DNA of 64,000 bases from Kocuria rosea. Its GTDB lineage: Bacteria; Actinomycetota; Actinomycetes; Actinomycetales; Micrococcaceae. The DNA is taken from the NCBI RefSeq assembly GCF_006094695.1, contig NZ_CP035103.1, positions 3,534,001 to 3,598,000 of the forward strand, given 5' to 3'. Position numbers and translations under genes: made by a program. Below the pieces are notes generated by a model. It saw only the letters and a list, made by a program, of their open reading frames with translations. It had not been told where the DNA came from and did no database searches. The stretch's first letter is position 1; each line of letters starts with the position of its first letter. Below, piece after piece: positions 1-64,000 of this stretch.

Positions 1-2650
<2,650 letters not shown>

Positions 2651-2743
2651 CGGTCCACATCCTTTCCGCGGTGCGTGCCCGGGGGGCGCGGCGCGGGCGT
2701 GGGGTTCACACGGTCTCGCCGCCAGTGTTGCAGGTCACAATAA

Positions 2744-2820
2744 CTATGTACAGAGTGTTTCGGTGCCGAGCGGCCCGGGTGCACCCACGAGCACTAGTCA
2801 TACAAGTTATTTATTTGTAT
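2744..2820. promoter_or_regulatory. Divergent control region with two inverted repeats
   Basis: The 214-base gap between metF (minus) and the talarate/galactarate dehydratase gene (plus) is unusually AT-rich for this window. It holds CTATGTACAGAG at 2744-2755, a near-perfect palindrome centred on TGTACA, and ATACAA-N9-TTGTAT at 2800-2805/2815-2820. Both look like regulator half-site pairs (GntR-like style), but the cognate regulator is unknown. Confidence 0.4.
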
Positions 2821-2864
2821 TATTCATTCTGACCGCCGCCGCCGAGACCCTCGAGGATCCCGCC

Positions 2865-3998
2865 ATGCCGTACACCCCGGACACCGTCCGCCACGTCCAG
2901 CTCTCCACCGCCACCCTGCCGCTGAGCACCCCGATCTCCGACGCCAAGGTCTTCACCGGCCGGCAGCGGCCGATGACCGAGGTCGTGTTCCTCTTCGCCG
3001 AGATCAGCACGGCGCAGGGGCACACCGGGATGGGCTTCAGCTACTCCAAGCGCGCCGGGGGCCCCGCCCAGTACGCCCACGCGAAGGAGGTGGCGGAGGG
3101 CCTGATCGGCGAGGACCCCAACGACATCGCCAGGGTGTACGACAAGCTGCTGTGGGCGGGCGCCTCCGTGGGCCGCTCCGGAGTGGCCACCCAGGCGCTG
3201 GCCGCGATCGACGTGGCCCTCTGGGACCTCAAGGCCAAGCGCGCCGGGCTGCCGCTGGCCAAGCTGCTGGGCGCCCACCGGGACTCCGTGCGGACCTACA
3301 ACACCTCCGGCGGGTTCCTCAACGCCTCCCTGGAGGAGGTCCGGGACCGCGCCACCCGCTCCCTCGAGGAGGGCATCGGCGGGATCAAGATCAAGGTGGG
3401 CCTGCCCGACTCCGCCGAGGACCTGCGCCGCGTGGCGGGCGTCCGCGAGCACATCGGCGCGGACGTGCCCCTGATGGTCGACGCCAACCAGCAGTGGGAC
3501 CGCGCCACGGCCCTGCGCATGGGCCGCCGGCTGGAGGAGTTCGACCTCGTCTGGATCGAGGAGCCCCTTGACGCCTACGACGCCGAGGGCCACGCCCAGC
3601 TGGCCGCGGCCCTGGACACGCCGATCGCCACCGGCGAGATGCTCGCCTCCGTCGCGGAGCACGTCCGGCTCATCGACGCCCGGGCCTGCGACATCATCCA
3701 GCCCGACGCCCCGCGCGTGGGGGGCATCACCCAGTTCCTGCGCCTGGCGGCCCTGGCCGACCAGCGCGGACTGGGGCTGGCCCCCCACTTCGCCATGGAG
3801 ATCCACCTGCACCTGGCGGCGGCCTATCCGCGCGAGCCGTGGGTGGAGCACTTCGACTGGCTCGACCCCCTCTTCGAGGAGCGCCTGGAGACCCGGGACG
3901 GGCGCATGCTCGTCCCCGACCGCCCCGGGCTCGGCGTCACGCTCAGCGGTCAGGCCCGCGCCTGGACCACGGACAGCGTGGCCTTCGGCCGGTCGTAG
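2865..3998 (+). CDS. L-talarate/galactarate dehydratase-like enolase superfamily enzyme
   Basis: Mandelate-racemase-type enolase superfamily member of 377 residues, closely resembling Salmonella talarate/galactarate dehydratase, which dehydrates aldarates to 5-keto-4-deoxyglucarate. Catalytic residues are visible: KIK (Lys175/Lys177), metal ligands Asp206 (VDANQQW), Glu232 (IEEPLDAYDAEGH) and Glu258 (ATGEML), and the general-base His308 (APHFAMEIH). The C-terminal stretch EPWVEHFDWLDPLFEERLE is also typical of that subgroup. The ATG at 2865 has a weak GAGG upstream. A strong hairpin follows at 4007. The product would feed the kdgD step encoded at 25726, or an aldolase and glycerate kinase route. 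Exact aldarate is uncertain. Confidence 0.8.
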   Translation: MPYTPDTVRHVQLSTATLPLSTPISDAKVFTGRQRPMTEVVFLFAEISTAQGHTGMGFSYSKRAGGPAQYAHAKEVAEGLIGEDPNDIARVYDKLLWAGASVGRSGVATQALAAIDVALWDLKAKRAGLPLAKLLGAHRDSVRTYNTSGGFLNASLEEVRDRATRSLEEGIGGIKIKVGLPDSAEDLRRVAGVREHIGADVPLMVDANQQWDRATALRMGRRLEEFDLVWIEEPLDAYDAEGHAQLAAALDTPIATGEMLASVAEHVRLIDARACDIIQPDAPRVGGITQFLRLAALADQRGLGLAPHFAMEIHLHLAAAYPREPWVEHFDWLDPLFEERLETRDGRMLVPDRPGLGVTLSGQARAWTTDSVAFGRS

Positions 3999-4006
3999 GC
4001 ACCGCG

Positions 4007-4031
4007 GCCGGCGCCCCCGGCGGGCGCCGGC
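4007..4031. terminator. Hairpin after the aldarate dehydratase gene
   Basis: GCCGGCGCCC and GGGCGCCGGC form a perfect 10-bp stem with a 5-base loop just after the stop codon. No T-run follows, as is common in GC-rich actinobacteria. Confidence 0.6.
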
Positions 4032-4094
4032 GCGACACGGCCGACGAAATCCGAGCGAGCCCTTGACCCGTGAGGCAGGTCACAGCTACGCTCG

Positions 4095-4108
4095 GGAAAA
4101 CGCTTTCC
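4095..4108. promoter_or_regulatory. LacI-type operator upstream of sugar-binding protein gene
   Basis: GGAAAACGCTTTCC is a palindrome with a central CG and one mismatched pair. The same motif lies at 15154-15167 and, as a perfect palindrome, at 19824-19837 beside the lacI-type gene at 19946. It sits 39 bases before the binding-protein start, where repressor binding would block transcription. Confidence 0.75.
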
Positions 4109-4146
4109 AGAAGGCGTTGCCTCGACCCATAGGAGACATGATCAGC

Positions 4147-5421
4147 ATGAAGCGAACGGGAACCCTCGCGAAGGCCGCCACCGTCCTCAGCGTGTCGGCG
4201 CTGGCCCTGACCGGCTGCGGCGGCGCCGACGATGCGAACGCCGACGGCAACGTCGAGCTGCGCTTCGCCTGGTGGGGCTCGGACACCCGCCACCAGCAGA
4301 CGCAGGAGATCATCGACGCCTTCGAGGAGCAGAACCCGGGGGTCACCATCGTGGGCGAGTACGGCGACTTCGGCGGCTACTGGGACAAGCTGGCCACGCA
4401 GACGGCCTCCAGCGACGCCCCGGACATCATCCAGATGGACGAGAAGTACCTGCGCGAGTACGCGGACAACGGCGCGCTGCTGGACCTCTCCGACGTGGAC
4501 GTCGCCGAGCTCGACGAGGGCGTCGTGGACAGCGGCCGGACCGAGGAGGGCCTCTTCGGCGTGGCCACGGGCGTCAACGTGATGGCGATGATGGCGAACC
4601 CCACCATCTACGAGGAGGCCGGGGTCGAGCTGCCGGACGACTCCACGTGGACCTGGGACGACTTCTCCGAGGTCTCCCAGCAGATCGCCGAGAACACGGA
4701 CGTCCACGGCACCAGCGGCCCGAACGAGCCGGCCGGCTTCCAGATCTGGCTGCGCCAGCAGGGCAAGGAGCTCACCACGCCCGAGGGGCAGCTCGGCTTC
4801 GAGGCGAGCGACGCCGCCGGCTACCTGGGCATGTGGCACCAGATGATGGAGGACGGCGCCCTGCCCCCGGCCTCGGTGGTCACGGAGGACCAGGAGCCGG
4901 GCCCCGACCAGTCGCTCACCGGCACCAACGGCGCGGCCATGGGCATGTGGTGGACCAACCAGCTGAGCGCCCTCAACGCCGCGTCCGGCAACCAGCTCGT
5001 CCCGCTCCGCTTCCCGAGCACCGACGGCACCGAGGGCGGCGCGCAGCTCTTCCAGAAGTCGGCCATGTTCATGTCCGCCTCCGCCCGCACCGAGCACCCC
5101 GAGGAGGTCAAGGCGTTCATCGACTTCATGGTCAACAGCGAGGAGGCCGGCAAGATCAACCTCGCGGACCGCGGCCTGCCCGCCAACGAGACGGTGCGCG
5201 AGGCCGTGCTGCCCGAGCTCAGCGAGGCGGACACCGCGGCCGCGGAGTTCGTCGAGGAGATCCAGCCCGAGCTGGGCGAGGCGCTGCCGGTCCCGCCGCT
5301 GGGCTTCAGCACCCTGCAGGAGATCATCTACCGCTACGAGCTCGACGTGCTCTTCGAGCGCTCGACCCCCGAGGAGGCCGCCGAGCGCATGATGTCCGAG
5401 ATGGAGTCGGCGATCAGCTGA
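4147..5421 (+). CDS. Carbohydrate ABC transporter solute-binding lipoprotein
   Basis: Family 1 extracellular sugar-binding protein of about 424 residues, anchored by a lipobox ending in Cys24 (ALTGC). It would capture a sugar outside the membrane for the permeases encoded on the minus strand at 12241 and 14122. Typical features are visible: LRFAWWGSDTRHQQTQEIIDAF near the start of the mature protein, DIIQMDEKYLREYADNGALLDL, and a C-terminal PEEAAERMMSEME. An AGGAG lies at 4131; the ATG at 4147 gives better spacing than the ATG at 4138. A LacI operator precedes it and a strong hairpin follows. No ATPase gene is near, so a shared MsiK-like ATPase is presumably used. Substrate unknown. Confidence 0.88.
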   Translation: MKRTGTLAKAATVLSVSALALTGCGGADDANADGNVELRFAWWGSDTRHQQTQEIIDAFEEQNPGVTIVGEYGDFGGYWDKLATQTASSDAPDIIQMDEKYLREYADNGALLDLSDVDVAELDEGVVDSGRTEEGLFGVATGVNVMAMMANPTIYEEAGVELPDDSTWTWDDFSEVSQQIAENTDVHGTSGPNEPAGFQIWLRQQGKELTTPEGQLGFEASDAAGYLGMWHQMMEDGALPPASVVTEDQEPGPDQSLTGTNGAAMGMWWTNQLSALNAASGNQLVPLRFPSTDGTEGGAQLFQKSAMFMSASARTEHPEEVKAFIDFMVNSEEAGKINLADRGLPANETVREAVLPELSEADTAAAEFVEEIQPELGEALPVPPLGFSTLQEIIYRYELDVLFERSTPEEAAERMMSEMESAIS

Positions 5422-5436
5422 CCCCCCCGCACACTC

Positions 5437-5470
5437 CGCGGGCGCCGGACGGCACCGTCCGGCGCCCGCG
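5437..5470. terminator. Strong hairpin between binding-protein and oxidoreductase genes
   Basis: CGCGGGCGCCGGACGG pairs perfectly with its reverse complement across a CA spacer (16 bp). It lies 16 bases after the binding-protein stop and 65 bases before the next start. This suits partial termination or mRNA 3'-end protection, so that binding protein is made in excess over the enzymes. Confidence 0.65.
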
Positions 5471-5534
5471 GCTCCACCTGCCTCCGACAGCCGAACCCGC
5501 CCGCCGAACCCGCCCGCCGAATCCAGGAGAACCT

Positions 5535-7562
5535 GTGCAGACCCAGACCGTGTCCGCCCCCGCCGCCCGCACCGCGCCGGAGGGACCCGTGCGCGTCTGC
5601 CTGGTGGGGATCGGCGGCTTCGGCGGACGCCACCTCGCGAACATCCGCCGGCTCGAGGAGGAGGGCCGTGTCCGCCTGGTGGCGGCCGTCGACCGGCGGG
5701 TCGACGACGACGGGGTGCTCGGACCGGACGTGCCCATGTTCGGCGACCTGGCGCAGCTGGAGGACGCCGGCCCGGACGTGGACGTCGTGGTGGTCTCCAC
5801 CCCCATCGACACCCACTTCGACCTCGCCCTGGCCGCCCTCCGGATGGGGGCCGACGTCCTGCTCGAGAAGCCCCCCGTGGCCAGCCTCGACCAGTTCGAC
5901 CGCCTCCTCGAGGCCGCCGGGGCGGCGGACCGGCTCGTCCAGGTGGGCTTCCAGAGCCTGGGCTCCCACTCCCTGGAGGTCGTCGAGCGACTGCTCGCCA
6001 GCGGGGAGATCGGGCGGCTGCGCGCGGTGGGCGCCACGGGGCTGTGGTCCCGGGACACCGACTACTTCACCCGGTCCCCGTGGGCCGGGCGGCGCCGCAT
6101 CGGCGGGGTGGACGTGGTGGACGGCGTGGTCACCAACCCGCTGGCCCACGCGGTGATGACCGCCCTGCACCTCGCCGGTGCCCGCACCCGCGAGGACGTC
6201 GCCGAGCTGAGCACCGAGCTCTACCGCGCCAACGCCATCGAGTCCGACGACACCTCGGTGGTCCGGGTGCGCACCGCGGCCGGGATCCCGGTCACGTGTG
6301 CCCTGACCCTGTGCGCCGCCGAGCAGCAGGACCCGTTCATCACCGTGGAGGGCACGGAGGGGCAGGCCGTCCTGCACTACACCCAGGACCGGCTGACCGT
6401 CACGGGCCCGGAGGGGACGCGGGTTGTCGAGTCCGGGCGCACGAACCTGCTCGAGAACCTGATCGACGCCCGGGCCCGGGGCACCGCGCTGCTGTGCCCG
6501 CTGGTCGCCACGGGGGCCTTCGTGCGGGTGCTGGACGCCGTCCGCACCGCCCCGGACCCCGTCCCGATCGCCCCCGAGCACGTCCGCTGGCACCAGGAGG
6601 ACGGGACGGCGCCGCGCGCCGTCCTCGACGGGATCGAGGACTGGGCGGCGCGGGCGGTCAGGGCGCAGTCGGACTTCGCCGGCCTGGGCGCCCCCTGGGC
6701 GCAACCCGCCGCCACGAGCGGGAGCGTGCTCCTCGGCGAGCGCGAGGTGGCGCAGGTCCGCACGGGCGAGGACGTCGCCCCGACCTCCTCCCCCCGCCCG
6801 TTCCTGCACCCCGTGCGGACCCTCGGCGGCGTCGTCCTCACGGACCAGCAGCCCCTGGACCACGTCTGGCACCTGGGGGTCGGCACGGCGCTCCAGGACG
6901 TGGACGGCCTCAACTTCTGGGGCGGGCGCACCTACACCCGGGAGGCGCAGCGCTACGTGTGGCGGGAGGACCACGGCCGCGTGCTCCGGGTCGCGGCGCA
7001 CCACGCCGACGACCGCCTCGACGAGGAGCTCGCCTGGACGGGCCCGGACGGCGCCGCGGTGCTGACCGAGGAGCGCCGCTGGACGTTCCGGCCCGTGCAC
7101 GAGCGCGCCTGGGAGCTCGGCCTGCGCTTCCGCCTCTCCCCCGCCGGCGACCACCCGGTGCGGCTCGGCAGCCCCGGCTCCAACGGGCGGGCCGGCGGCG
7201 GCTACGGAGGATTCTTCTGGCGGCTCCCCGCCTGCACCGACGCGGACGTGTTCACCGCGGACGCGGCGGGCGAGCAGGCCGTGCACGGCAGCACCTCCCC
7301 GTGGCTCGCCTTCTCCGCCGAGTTCGCGGGGCGCCCCGCGACCCTCGTCCTGCGGCGCGGCGACGACTCGGCCGACCCCTGGTTCGTCCGGCACGCCGGG
7401 TACCCGGGGGTGGGCCTCGCCCTGGCCTGGGACGCGCCCGTCACGACGACGACGGACCGGCCGGTCGAGCGGGAGGTGCGCGTGCTCGTCGTCGACGGCC
7501 GTCTCGACACCCCCCGGGTGGAGGCCCTGCTCGGGGACGCGGCCCGGGGCCGGACCGCGTGA
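5535..7562 (+). CDS. Gfo/Idh/MocA oxidoreductase fused to a PmoA-like (DUF6807) domain
   Basis: Two-domain protein of 675 residues. Residues about 18-370 are a Gfo/Idh/MocA NAD(P)-dependent sugar oxidoreductase with the Rossmann motif VGIGGFGGRH, an EKPP motif (LLEKPPVAS) and a C-terminal substrate domain. Residues about 395-670 resemble the PmoA/DUF6807 family found in bacterial sugar-catabolic loci (GGVVLTDQQPLDHVWHLGVG, NFWGGRTY, FFWRLPACTDADVFTA, PWFVRHAGYPGVGLALAWD). The GTG start at 5535 follows AGGAG with 5-base spacing. The stop overlaps the next start by 4 bases. The sugar substrate is unknown; the PmoA name is historical and no methane oxidation is implied. The fusion suggests the two activities act on one substrate in sequence. 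Confidence 0.8.
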   Translation: MQTQTVSAPAARTAPEGPVRVCLVGIGGFGGRHLANIRRLEEEGRVRLVAAVDRRVDDDGVLGPDVPMFGDLAQLEDAGPDVDVVVVSTPIDTHFDLALAALRMGADVLLEKPPVASLDQFDRLLEAAGAADRLVQVGFQSLGSHSLEVVERLLASGEIGRLRAVGATGLWSRDTDYFTRSPWAGRRRIGGVDVVDGVVTNPLAHAVMTALHLAGARTREDVAELSTELYRANAIESDDTSVVRVRTAAGIPVTCALTLCAAEQQDPFITVEGTEGQAVLHYTQDRLTVTGPEGTRVVESGRTNLLENLIDARARGTALLCPLVATGAFVRVLDAVRTAPDPVPIAPEHVRWHQEDGTAPRAVLDGIEDWAARAVRAQSDFAGLGAPWAQPAATSGSVLLGEREVAQVRTGEDVAPTSSPRPFLHPVRTLGGVVLTDQQPLDHVWHLGVGTALQDVDGLNFWGGRTYTREAQRYVWREDHGRVLRVAAHHADDRLDEELAWTGPDGAAVLTEERRWTFRPVHERAWELGLRFRLSPAGDHPVRLGSPGSNGRAGGGYGGFFWRLPACTDADVFTADAAGEQAVHGSTSPWLAFSAEFAGRPATLVLRRGDDSADPWFVRHAGYPGVGLALAWDAPVTTTTDRPVEREVRVLVVDGRLDTPRVEALLGDAARGRTA

Positions 7563-9796: not shown

Positions 9797-10758
9797 GCGG
9801 TGTCCTTCCCGTGCCGGCCGGCGCCCGCGGGCTCCCCGGCCGCGGCGGCCACGGGCTCCTCCCGGAGCTCGGTGCGCCAGCTGCGCGCCGGCTCCCAGTC
9901 CAGGACCCGGCGGGCCTTGTCGATGCTGAAGGCGGGGGCCGTCCCGGTCAGCCCCGCGGCGAGCTGCTCGCTGCCCGGGACGAACTCGGGCAGCAGCTCC
10001 GCGAGCGGGCGCCGGGCCAGGGCGTCGGCGGCGCCCACCAGGAAGGTGTCGCCGTTGCGGATCGCGCCCATCCGTTCCAGCAGCGCCTCCAGGAAGGCCG
10101 TGACGTCCCGGGCGTCCACGTAGTTGAACAGCGCCGGCGCGGCGAGCGCGGGGTCGTCGAGCCGCTCCCGCACGGTGTGGCCCTGCTGCGTGGGGGCGCC
10201 CTCCCACTCCTCGGGGGCGATCACGTAGCAGGGGCGGAAGGACGCGTAGCGCACGGCCTCGCCCCGGGCGGCGGCGAACATCTGTGCCACCTGCTCCGCC
10301 ACGTGCTTGGACAGCCCGTAGGCGTGCCACGGCCGGGGAGGGGTCTCCTCCGTGAGCGGGAACGCGGGCGGCAACCAGCCCGCCGGGGAGCCGTAGCCCA
10401 GCACCGTGGGGCTGCTGGCCATGACGATCCGTCGCACCCCGGCCTCGGTCGCCGCGCCGGCCACGTTGTGCGCGATCACCGCGTTGGTCTGCAGGATGAC
10501 GTGCTCGGGGGCGCTGAACGGGACGGCGATGGCCGCCAGGTTGATCACGGCGTCCGGGCGGACCGCGCGCATCAGCGCGTGCACGGCGTCCGGGTCGGTG
10601 AGCTCCGCGCCTCGGTGCTCCACGGCGGGGTGGGAGCCGGCGGGGTCCGCGGGCAGGGACCGGTCGACGCTGAGGACGTCGTAGCCGGCCTCCGCCAGCC
10701 CGGCGACCACGCTGCGGCCGAGCCGGCCCGCGCCGCCGGTGACGAGGACGCGGCTCAT
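9793..10758 (-). CDS. NAD-dependent epimerase/dehydratase family protein
   Basis: Extended short-chain dehydrogenase of 321 residues. It has an N-terminal NAD-binding motif TGGAGRLG (residues about 7-14), an active-site YGLSK with a preceding serine block (MASSPTVLGYG), and NLAAI. Such proteins in sugar-acid loci oxidise or epimerise sugars, for example uronate dehydrogenases, but I cannot assign the substrate. Both ends overlap neighbours by 4 bases, so the three-gene set oxidoreductase-epimerase-enolase is probably translated as a coupled unit. Confidence 0.8.
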   Translation of the reverse strand: MSRVLVTGGAGRLGRSVVAGLAEAGYDVLSVDRSLPADPAGSHPAVEHRGAELTDPDAVHALMRAVRPDAVINLAAIAVPFSAPEHVILQTNAVIAHNVAGAATEAGVRRIVMASSPTVLGYGSPAGWLPPAFPLTEETPPRPWHAYGLSKHVAEQVAQMFAAARGEAVRYASFRPCYVIAPEEWEGAPTQQGHTVRERLDDPALAAPALFNYVDARDVTAFLEALLERMGAIRNGDTFLVGAADALARRPLAELLPEFVPGSEQLAAGLTGTAPAFSIDKARRVLDWEPARSWRTELREEPVAAAAGEPAGAGRHGKDTA

Positions 10759-62526: not shown

Positions 62527-62566
62527 GCCCGCCGGTGTGGCTCCTGACACACCGGCGGGCTATGCT
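62527..62566 (+). promoter_or_regulatory. Hairpin and minus-10 box directly before the formate dehydrogenase start
   Basis: GCCCGCCGGTGTG (62527-62539) pairs perfectly with 62548-62560 around an 8-base loop (13 bp). TATGCT (62561-62566) follows and ends 6 bases before the ATG at 62573. There is no Shine-Dalgarno sequence. This spacing suggests a leaderless mRNA, common in actinobacteria. GCTCCTGACA occurs twice (62540-62549 and 62564-62573). Confidence 0.45.
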
Positions 62567-62572
62567 CCTGAC

Positions 62573-64000
62573 ATGTCACGATTCAGTCCCCTGGAGTGGC
62601 CGGTCCTCCGGCAGATCCGTTCGGGCGACCTGCTCGGTCGCGGACCGGCGGTGACCTCGGAGCGCACCCGGACGACGAGCCCGCGCACGACCACCGCGGA
62701 CCGGGTCGTGCAGAGCGTCTGCCCGTACTGCGCGGTCGGCTGCGGCCAGCGGGTGTACGTCAAGGACGAGAAGGTCGTCCAGATCGAGGGCGACCCGGAC
62801 TCGCCGATCTCCCGCGGACGCCTGTGCCCCAAGGGCGCGGCCAGCGAGCAGCTGGTCAACGCCCCCGGCCGGCAGACCGAGGTGCTCTACCGTGCGCCCC
62901 GGGCCACCGAGTGGCAGCGGCTGGACCTCGGCACCGCCCTCGAGATGGTGGCCGACCGCGTCCTCGAGGCCCGCCGCAACGGCTGGCAGGACGCCGACGA
63001 GCAGGGCCGTCCGCTGCGCCGCACGATGGGCTTCGCCGCCCTGGGCGGCGCCACGCTGGACAACGAGGAGAACTACCTCATCAAGAAGCTCTTCACCGCC
63101 GCGGGAGCGATCCAGATCGAGAACCAGGCCCGTATTTGACACTCCGCCACGGTTCCCGGTCTGGGAGCCTCGTTCGGACGTGGCGGTGCCACGCAGTCCC
63201 TGCAGGACATGGCCAACGCCGACTGCATCGTCATCCAGGGCTCCAACATGGCCGAGTGCCACCCCGTGGGCTACCAGTGGGTGACGGAGGCCAAGGCGCG
63301 CGGCGCCCGGGTCATCCACGTCGACCCGCGCTTCACCCGCACCTCGGCGGTCGCTGACAAGCACGTCCCGATCCGGGCCGGCTCGGACATCGTCCTGCTC
63401 GGCGCCCTGGTCAACCACGTGCTCACCCACGACCTGTGGTTCGAGGAGTACGTGCGCGCCTACACCAACGCCGCCACGCTGGTGAACGAGGACTACCGCG
63501 ACGCCGAGGACCTCGACGGGCTGTTCTCCGGGTTCGACCCGGAGACCGGCCAGTACGACATGTCCACCTGGGCCTACGCCGAGAACGAGGGCGGCGCCGG
63601 GGACCACGACGGCCGGGTGGACGCACCCGCGGGCGACCCCGACCACGGCGCCGAGGAGGGGGCGGAGGCCGTGGACGAGGCCGCCGGCCAGCAGCTCGGC
63701 AGCGGCGGCGCCCCGATGGAGCACGCCCGCATGCAGCGCGACGAGACCCTGCAGGACCCCCGGACGGTGTTCCAGATCCTCAAGCGGCACTACGCGCGCT
63801 ACACCCCCGAGATGGTGCAGGAGGTGTGCGGCGTCTCCCCCGAGGACTTCGCGTACCTGGCCCGCTCCATCACGGAGAACTCCGGGCGGGAGCGGACCAC
63901 GTGCTTCGCCTACGCCGTGGGCTGGACCCAGCACAGCCTGGGCGCGCAGTACATCCGCACCGCGTCCATCCTGCAGCTGCTGCTGGGCAACATGGGCCGC
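62573..64000 (+). CDS. Selenocysteine-containing formate dehydrogenase alpha subunit (FdnG type; 3' end outside window)
   Basis: Molybdenum/tungsten formate dehydrogenase catalytic subunit, formate to CO2. 476 codons are visible. The 4Fe-4S cysteines are Cys50, Cys53, Cys57 and Cys85 (CPYCAVGC...GRLCPKGAA). The in-frame TGA at 63137-63139 is codon 189 and sits in NQARI-U-HSATVPGLGASFGRG, aligned with NQARV-U-HGPTV of FdnG. The frame then stays open to the window end with clear homology (HVDPRFTRTSAVAD, AYAVGWTQHSLGAQYIRT, LLLGNMG). No Tat signal is present, unlike periplasmic FdnG, so the enzyme is probably cytoplasmic. A roughly 40-residue acidic insertion lies at about 63580-63750. ATG 62573 is preferred over GTG 62537. 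Confidence 0.92.
63137..63186 (+). promoter_or_regulatory. UGA selenocysteine codon and bacterial SECIS element
   Basis: After TGA (63137-63139), GGTTCCC (63151-63157) pairs with GGGAGCC (63163-63169) around a GGTCT loop (63158-63162). An outer stem CCGCCAC (63144-63150) pairs with GTGGCGG (63180-63186), leaving a 10-base bulge on the 3' side. The loop GGTCT and its distance of 18 bases from the TGA are the same as in the E. coli fdhF SECIS as I remember it. This supports SelB-directed selenocysteine insertion. Confidence 0.88.

Follow-up and report, generated by a model that had tools for sequence, protein, structure and literature searches.

We propose that the TGA at 63137..63139 (+ strand) of the analysed window, a 64,000-nucleotide stretch of Kocuria rosea DNA, is almost certainly a selenocysteine codon in the gene for the catalytic subunit of a molybdopterin formate dehydrogenase, and that the residue would be inserted by machinery encoded in the same gene cluster. 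This assignment, made from genome sequences, draws on the position of codon 189 in protein alignments and on the co-occurrence of this TGA with tRNA-Sec.

A formate dehydrogenase gene with a single in-frame TGA

The fdhG/fdnG-type alpha-subunit gene occupies 62573..64000 (+ strand), where the first 476 of its 1121 codons lie, and runs 1938 bases past the window end. We therefore followed it on an 18-kb stretch reaching past the window (L021, whose position p is window position p + 60000), where its full span is 2573-5938. Translation of 62573-64000 gave a single stop, the TGA at codon 189, between ENQARI and HSATVPG. The frame around this triplet is open for 222 codons upstream and 932 codons downstream, and its terminator is a TGA at L021 5936-5938, 1.9 kb beyond the window. 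When the internal TGA is counted as an amino acid, a 1121-residue product with no other stop is obtained.

Against the NCBIfam model NF041513 (formate_DH_Act, cut-off 1400), this read-through product scored 1959 bits, and the match spans positions 4-1067 of the 1067 in the model. It also passed TIGR01553 (formate dehydrogenase-N alpha; cut-off 814.2), scoring 922.5 bits. The Pfam domains Molybdop_Fe4S4, Molybdopterin and Molydop_binding were found, so that 4Fe-4S and molybdopterin domains extend across the full length of the subunit. In the three PDB alignments printed (337-342 bits), residue 189 aligns once with C and twice with X, and all three chains are named 'formate dehydrogenase, alpha subunit, selenocysteine-containing'; the lone in-frame TGA is thus found at the catalytic Sec/Cys position. 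Both the single TGA at codon 189 and its placement at the catalytic selenocysteine, as claimed in a preliminary description of this DNA, are borne out by these data. The same description expected standard gene callers to split such a gene. This is not always the case, since RefSeq annotates the genes of two plasmid copies (see below) as whole, with the TGA as codon 189 of the CDS in each. For the present gene, the annotation becomes one 1121-residue selenoenzyme instead of a 188- or 200-residue fragment plus a 909-residue one.

Two other properties of the protein were recorded. E. coli FdnG has a twin-arginine pair; none is present in the first 60 residues here (window 62537-62716, with the upstream GTG at 62537 as the first codon), which hints that the catalytic subunit is on the cytoplasmic side. 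Residues 343-387 (window 63599-63733) form an acidic, Gly/Ala-rich stretch without a counterpart in the three PDB alignments printed, and it is flanked by blocks that align with solved formate dehydrogenases.

The selenocysteine machinery is encoded directly downstream

A selenocysteine system had been predicted to lie outside the window. We found tRNA-Sec, selA, selB and selD in the genome, all above the model cut-offs, directly downstream in the same gene cluster and within 8.5 kb of the window end; an absence of selB and tRNA-Sec, which would have spoken against selenocysteine, did not appear. The order of the cluster is fdhG, Fe-S beta subunit, NrfD-type anchor, selD (on the opposite strand), selC, selA and selB.

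Rfam RF01852 placed the tRNA-Sec gene (selC) at L021 9119-9209 with 79.9 bits (gathering threshold 47), and ARAGORN also called it SeC, with the anticodon tca, so a tRNA with a UCA anticodon is present. SelA starts near L021 9285 and ends at 10616 (TIGR00474, 410.8 bits, cut-off 267.9). SelD is encoded on the opposite strand at L021 8058-9077 (TIGR00476, 388.6 bits, cut-off 125); both enzymes are hence represented, and the SelD stretch GGGCACKI has Cys and no TGA. SelB, of 598 residues, is encoded at L021 10613-12409 (TIGR00475, 292.5 bits, cut-off 242.25) and comprises GTPase, SelB beta-barrel and SelB winged-helix domains. Among the winged helices PF09107 alone was found, which provides the C-terminal winged-helix domain.

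The names of the two partner subunits rest on Pfam domains and gene order. The 334-residue beta subunit (L021 5938-6942) carries 4Fe-4S domains and scored 161.5 bits against TIGR01582 (FDH-beta), below the cut-off of 334.7. The membrane anchor, which ends at L021 8030, matches Pfam NrfD (65.4 bits, cut-off 25.8) and reached no NCBIfam cut-off. FdhD, which known formate dehydrogenases require for sulphuration of the cofactor, is encoded at another site in the genome (149.3 bits against a cut-off of 140.9).

A conserved hairpin follows the TGA

A two-part stem-loop had been described downstream of the TGA. Of its two parts, the upper hairpin of 19 bases with its GGTCT loop in the fdhF register withstood the comparison with relatives and the lower stem did not. 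The stem-loop, a putative bacterial SECIS element, is real on this comparative evidence, and its support is limited to the upper hairpin. The latter (63151..63169, + strand; GGUUCCC-GGUCU-GGGAGCC) has a 7-bp stem and a 5-base loop and covers codons +4 to +10 after the TGA. The loop, at 63158..63162 (+ strand), is offset from the TGA by as many bases as the GGTCT of E. coli K-12 fdhF, so a hairpin with a GGUCU-type loop is found at the fdhF distance from UGA.

We compared the hairpin in 112 sequences, the window included, of which 79 are distinct. The upper helix is paired in 98.6% of cells. Loop bases two, three and five are invariant in 79/79 distinct sequences, and the loop variants among relatives are GGTCT, AGTCT and AGTTT. 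The wobble entropies at codons +4 to +10 are 0.13, 0.39, 0, 0, 0, 0.59 and 0.07 bits (mean 0.17, with codons +7 and +10 falling short of the 90% limit applied outside), compared with a mean of 1.25 bits and a lowest value of 0.20 over 23 codons outside the hairpin, which were confined to A, G, P, T, V, L, S and R codons with at least 90% of one residue, codons 0 to +16 excluded. Immediately after the hairpin, codon +11 has 1.4 bits. The two most variable of the seven wobble sites, the third positions of codons Val +5 and Gly +9, pair with each other and covary (UA 68, CG 5, UG 4, GU 2), and are unpaired in none of the 79 sequences.

The base at 63153 (+ strand) is T in all 79 distinct sequences. 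Its offset is that of the base which we take to be U17 of fdhF, and it faces G, A or T (it is unpaired in 6/79), so that it need not pair. A bulged U in SECIS elements is read by SelB, and an invariant T with a variable partner is in keeping with a bulged U that SelB would recognise. Since 63153 is the second base of the conserved Val codon, its constancy is no independent evidence.

The proposed lower stem (5' arm 63144..63150, + strand; 3' arm 63180-63186) was rejected on conservation: 79.9% of its cells are paired, and the pair 63149-63181 is broken in 67 of the 79 sequences. An extended lower stem of the kind seen in fdhF was therefore not found; such a stem is not essential for SelB binding and so is not strictly defining. 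The two helices taken together are paired in 89.2% of cells, as against at most 52.3% when the partner arm is slid and a mean of 88.5% in shuffled alignments. Two of the five covariation measures used, 'pairs with a change on both sides' and 'further pair types', were no better than in shuffles (175/500 and 315/500, respectively), and two others beat every shuffle, the sequences being related to one another. The folding energy of −24.7 kcal/mol is unexceptional (z = −1.34; 21 of 200 shuffles as good), and taken alone it was discarded as a test of the hairpin because it is uninformative in GC-rich DNA. The evidence for the hairpin is hence comparative. Rfam models run over the window gave nothing at the gathering threshold.

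A covariance model was also built from the hairpin alignment and used to search the genome. The fdh site scored 84.2 bits, and the next best of five weak sites scored 23.3 bits (E = 0.17). Two of these weak sites have a TGA near the start of the match (L142 and L143), in frames that stay open for just 31 and 32 codons upstream of it and 46 and 20 codons downstream, and were rejected, as were two sites without a TGA (L141 and L144). The remaining one (L145) matched model positions 15-54 only. As the model is family-specific, divergent SECIS elements could escape it. One TGA-bearing formate dehydrogenase homologue was found in this genome.

The TGA is shared by relatives and co-occurs with tRNA-Sec

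When species genomes were scanned, 493 candidate stretches were confirmed, and the best 80 of them were kept. All 80 have TGA at the site. They include loci from Kocuria, Arthrobacter, Paenarthrobacter, Sinomonas, Tersicoccus, Brevibacterium and Mycobacterium, and the closest among these best 80 is from an uncultured Kocuria (96%). TGA at the site was also observed in 29 relatives from a sample of the order given as loci and in two plasmid loci. Altogether, 111 of the 113 loci read have TGA at exactly the codon 189 site, the remaining two being Cys loci chosen for the absence of a stop. Among the 80 TGA loci with at least 6.37 kb downstream, tRNA-Sec was found in 77, selA in 75, selD in 78 and selB in 68; the other 31 TGA loci span at most 4.1 kb downstream and are too short to show the cassette genes. 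Three long loci (L069, L076 and L078) had no tRNA-Sec within the stretch around the gene. Cassette genes missed in long loci may in some cases lie past the end of the stretch.

The only homologues with Cys at the site were four more distant ones (62-65% identity), in which the codons are TGC, TGT, TGC and TGC. In these, the GGT codon of the loop is replaced by GGC, GGG, GGG and GGG, respectively, the stem is changed further, and no match to selA, selB or selD was obtained within the 15-18 kb around them. Relatives with Cys together with decay downstream of the window in this strain, which would have argued against selenocysteine, were not what we saw: the nearest relatives have TGA, and the frame is intact downstream.

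We then counted the enzyme in 297 genomes of the order (at E ≤ 1e-80). It is present in 93 of them, 91 with one TGA and two without a stop, and in 6 of the 24 genomes of the family, our own genome counted. The patchy distribution suspected earlier thus holds, yet the enzyme is common rather than rare. A tRNA-Sec above the Rfam cut-off was found in 114 of the 297 genomes: in all 91 genomes whose homologue has the TGA (at least 62.7 bits in each), in neither of the two whose homologue lacks the stop, and in 23 without the enzyme. Among these 23, the match is weak only (<54 bits) in 17 and strong in six. One of the latter (G295) holds an enzyme fragment with 82% identity across residues 1-115, and four (G004, G108, G164 and G257) have only distant relatives of it, at 30-37% identity. 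In the sixth (G010, 91% complete), no relative of the enzyme was detected at E ≤ 1e-5. G004, G010, G108, G164 and G257 may have other selenoproteins or, in G010, the assembly may be incomplete.

A phylum sample of 396 genomes (enzyme counted at E ≤ 1e-120) gave 77 with the enzyme, 75 with TGA and two without. Here, tRNA-Sec was searched in five chosen genomes, namely G432 and the four Cys genomes, of which the order and phylum samples contributed two each. The best tRNA-Sec scores of the four Cys genomes are 41.5-44.2 bits, below the cut-off of 47. G432, which has a TGA homologue, scored 47.7 bits, just above it; scores so close to the cut-off are unsafe, as 5 of 14 control genomes passed and only 2 of 14 did so for SelB. 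The homologue in G432 (G432:C16:16726-18114) carries, besides the selenocysteine TGA, one extra in-frame TAG downstream, which may be an error or decay.

Other readings of the TGA

A lone in-frame TGA looks like a nonsense mutation, and the gene could be a pseudogene, or the stop a sequencing error, with a truncated and dead product. We consider this extremely improbable, since a mutation of this kind is at odds with a TGA in the homologues of 91/93 enzyme-bearing genomes in the order and 75/77 in the phylum, and at the same codon in 111/113 loci, the other two having been picked for lacking the stop. The 932 intact codons after it and the machinery genes adjoining the formate dehydrogenase gene point in the same direction.

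The TGA might also be read in another manner, for instance as Trp by near-cognate suppression, or termination might occur there and leave a functional product of 188 residues. We give this hardly any credence either. At the corresponding position, the three PDB alignments printed show C or X and the four stop-free homologues show Cys; the wobble positions are frozen across the hairpin downstream, and the 188-residue product would be missing most of the molybdopterin domain.

Selenocysteine insertion is thus the reading that we retain, and its course can be outlined. The reading frame, the machinery genes, the hairpin constraint and the co-occurrence come from our analysis; for the insertion mechanism and the electron path we draw on established knowledge. 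SelD would make selenophosphate, SelA would convert Ser-tRNA(Sec) to Sec-tRNA(Sec), and selC would supply the UCA-anticodon tRNA. SelB, together with Sec-tRNA(Sec) and GTP, would bind the 19-base hairpin, which starts 14 bases after the U of UGA, and the ribosome at the UGA would then insert selenocysteine at the active site rather than terminate. The enzyme is expected to oxidise formate and to pass the electrons through the Fe-S subunit and the membrane anchor, probably to the quinone pool. Formate oxidation by this organism is accordingly predicted to depend on selenium.

Phylogeny and plasmid-borne copies

Species of Kocuria hold two groups of this formate dehydrogenase, with 76-78% (L082, L087 and L095) and 90-96% (L021-L026) identity to that of the window. 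In a tree of 34 chosen rows, where long branches lead to two Cys rows and one plasmid row, the window falls with the Kocuria rosea group and away from K. rhizophila, K. tytonicola and K. tytonis; the deep support is weak. A SelB tree, in a quick version, had 23 rows.

Plasmid pYA7-1a of Arthrobacter sp. YA7-1 (129,773 bases, typed conjugative) carries a complete fdh-nrfD-selD-selA-selB cassette (L131 11979-25043), in which ARAGORN also found tRNA-Sec. A site-specific integrase gene precedes fdh by ∼3.6 kb, and selB is followed after ∼0.2 kb by a Tn3 transposase gene. A second plasmid-borne cassette is on plasmid 17 of Tsukamurella tyrosinosolvens (L132 11992-21544), whose formate dehydrogenase is the long plasmid branch of the tree. 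As in the present cluster, both have fdh, the Fe-S subunit, nrfD, selD on the opposite strand, selA and selB, with tRNA-Sec in the locus; unlike them, the cluster studied here is on a single contig of 3.95 Mb.

The plasmid cassettes suggest a transferable trait. Taken with the two formate dehydrogenase groups in Kocuria species, they lead us to put forward, tentatively and with less than even confidence, that the actinobacterial fdh-nrfD-selD-selC-selA-selB cluster could be a self-contained mobile module, by which the 21st amino acid and one client gene might be gained or lost through plasmid transfer. Transfer of the whole selenocysteine trait is already described in a published account (PMC5029168); if the module were real, the novelty would lie in the plasmid vehicle. 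A literature search on selenocysteine, plasmid, formate dehydrogenase and Arthrobacter returned nothing evidently relevant.

Comparison with known selenocysteine systems

The gene is a plain member of NCBIfam NF041513, with no difference seen. A literature search on selenocysteine and Kocuria gave nothing evidently on this gene, and according to a survey from 2006, every selenoproteome contained either FdhA or SelD (PMC1794560). A close published counterpart is the fdnG-fdxH-sel region of Corynebacterium aurimucosum ATCC 700975, reported in 2010, with a selenocysteine formate dehydrogenase gene containing an internal UGA and with selA, selB, selD and selC in the cluster (PMC2830990). As in the present case, an actinobacterial UGA-containing formate dehydrogenase gene is clustered with the selenocysteine genes; unlike Kocuria here, it belongs to another genus.

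In Actinomycetospora chiangmaiensis DSM 45062, the published account describes FDH1 as a membrane-bound selenocysteine enzyme of 1078 residues grouped with selA and selB, reports that formate removal needs added selenite, and gives FdhA and the Sel proteins as being of low abundance in proteomics (PMC7176365). That organism is credited with three selenocysteine formate dehydrogenases, whereas one TGA homologue was found here, and its selD is listed apart from the FDH1 cluster, whereas ours is inside the cluster.

With a curated NCBI model, the RefSeq read-through of the plasmid copies and the cluster reported in 2010, the finding is correct but ordinary. Beyond annotation and the selenium prediction, it provides a clean textbook case, and the comparison with relatives defines the actinobacterial fdh SECIS tightly and supplies natural Sec/Cys controls. 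Like E. coli K-12 fdhF (L135 in our set), the gene has the GGTCT loop equally far from the TGA, a GGT at the base of the upper stem and T at the same offset; unlike fdhF, it differs in the rest of the upper stem, and its lower stem is unconserved. It is ordinary selenocysteine recoding, new as an instance, in a Kocuria genome, and not as a kind.
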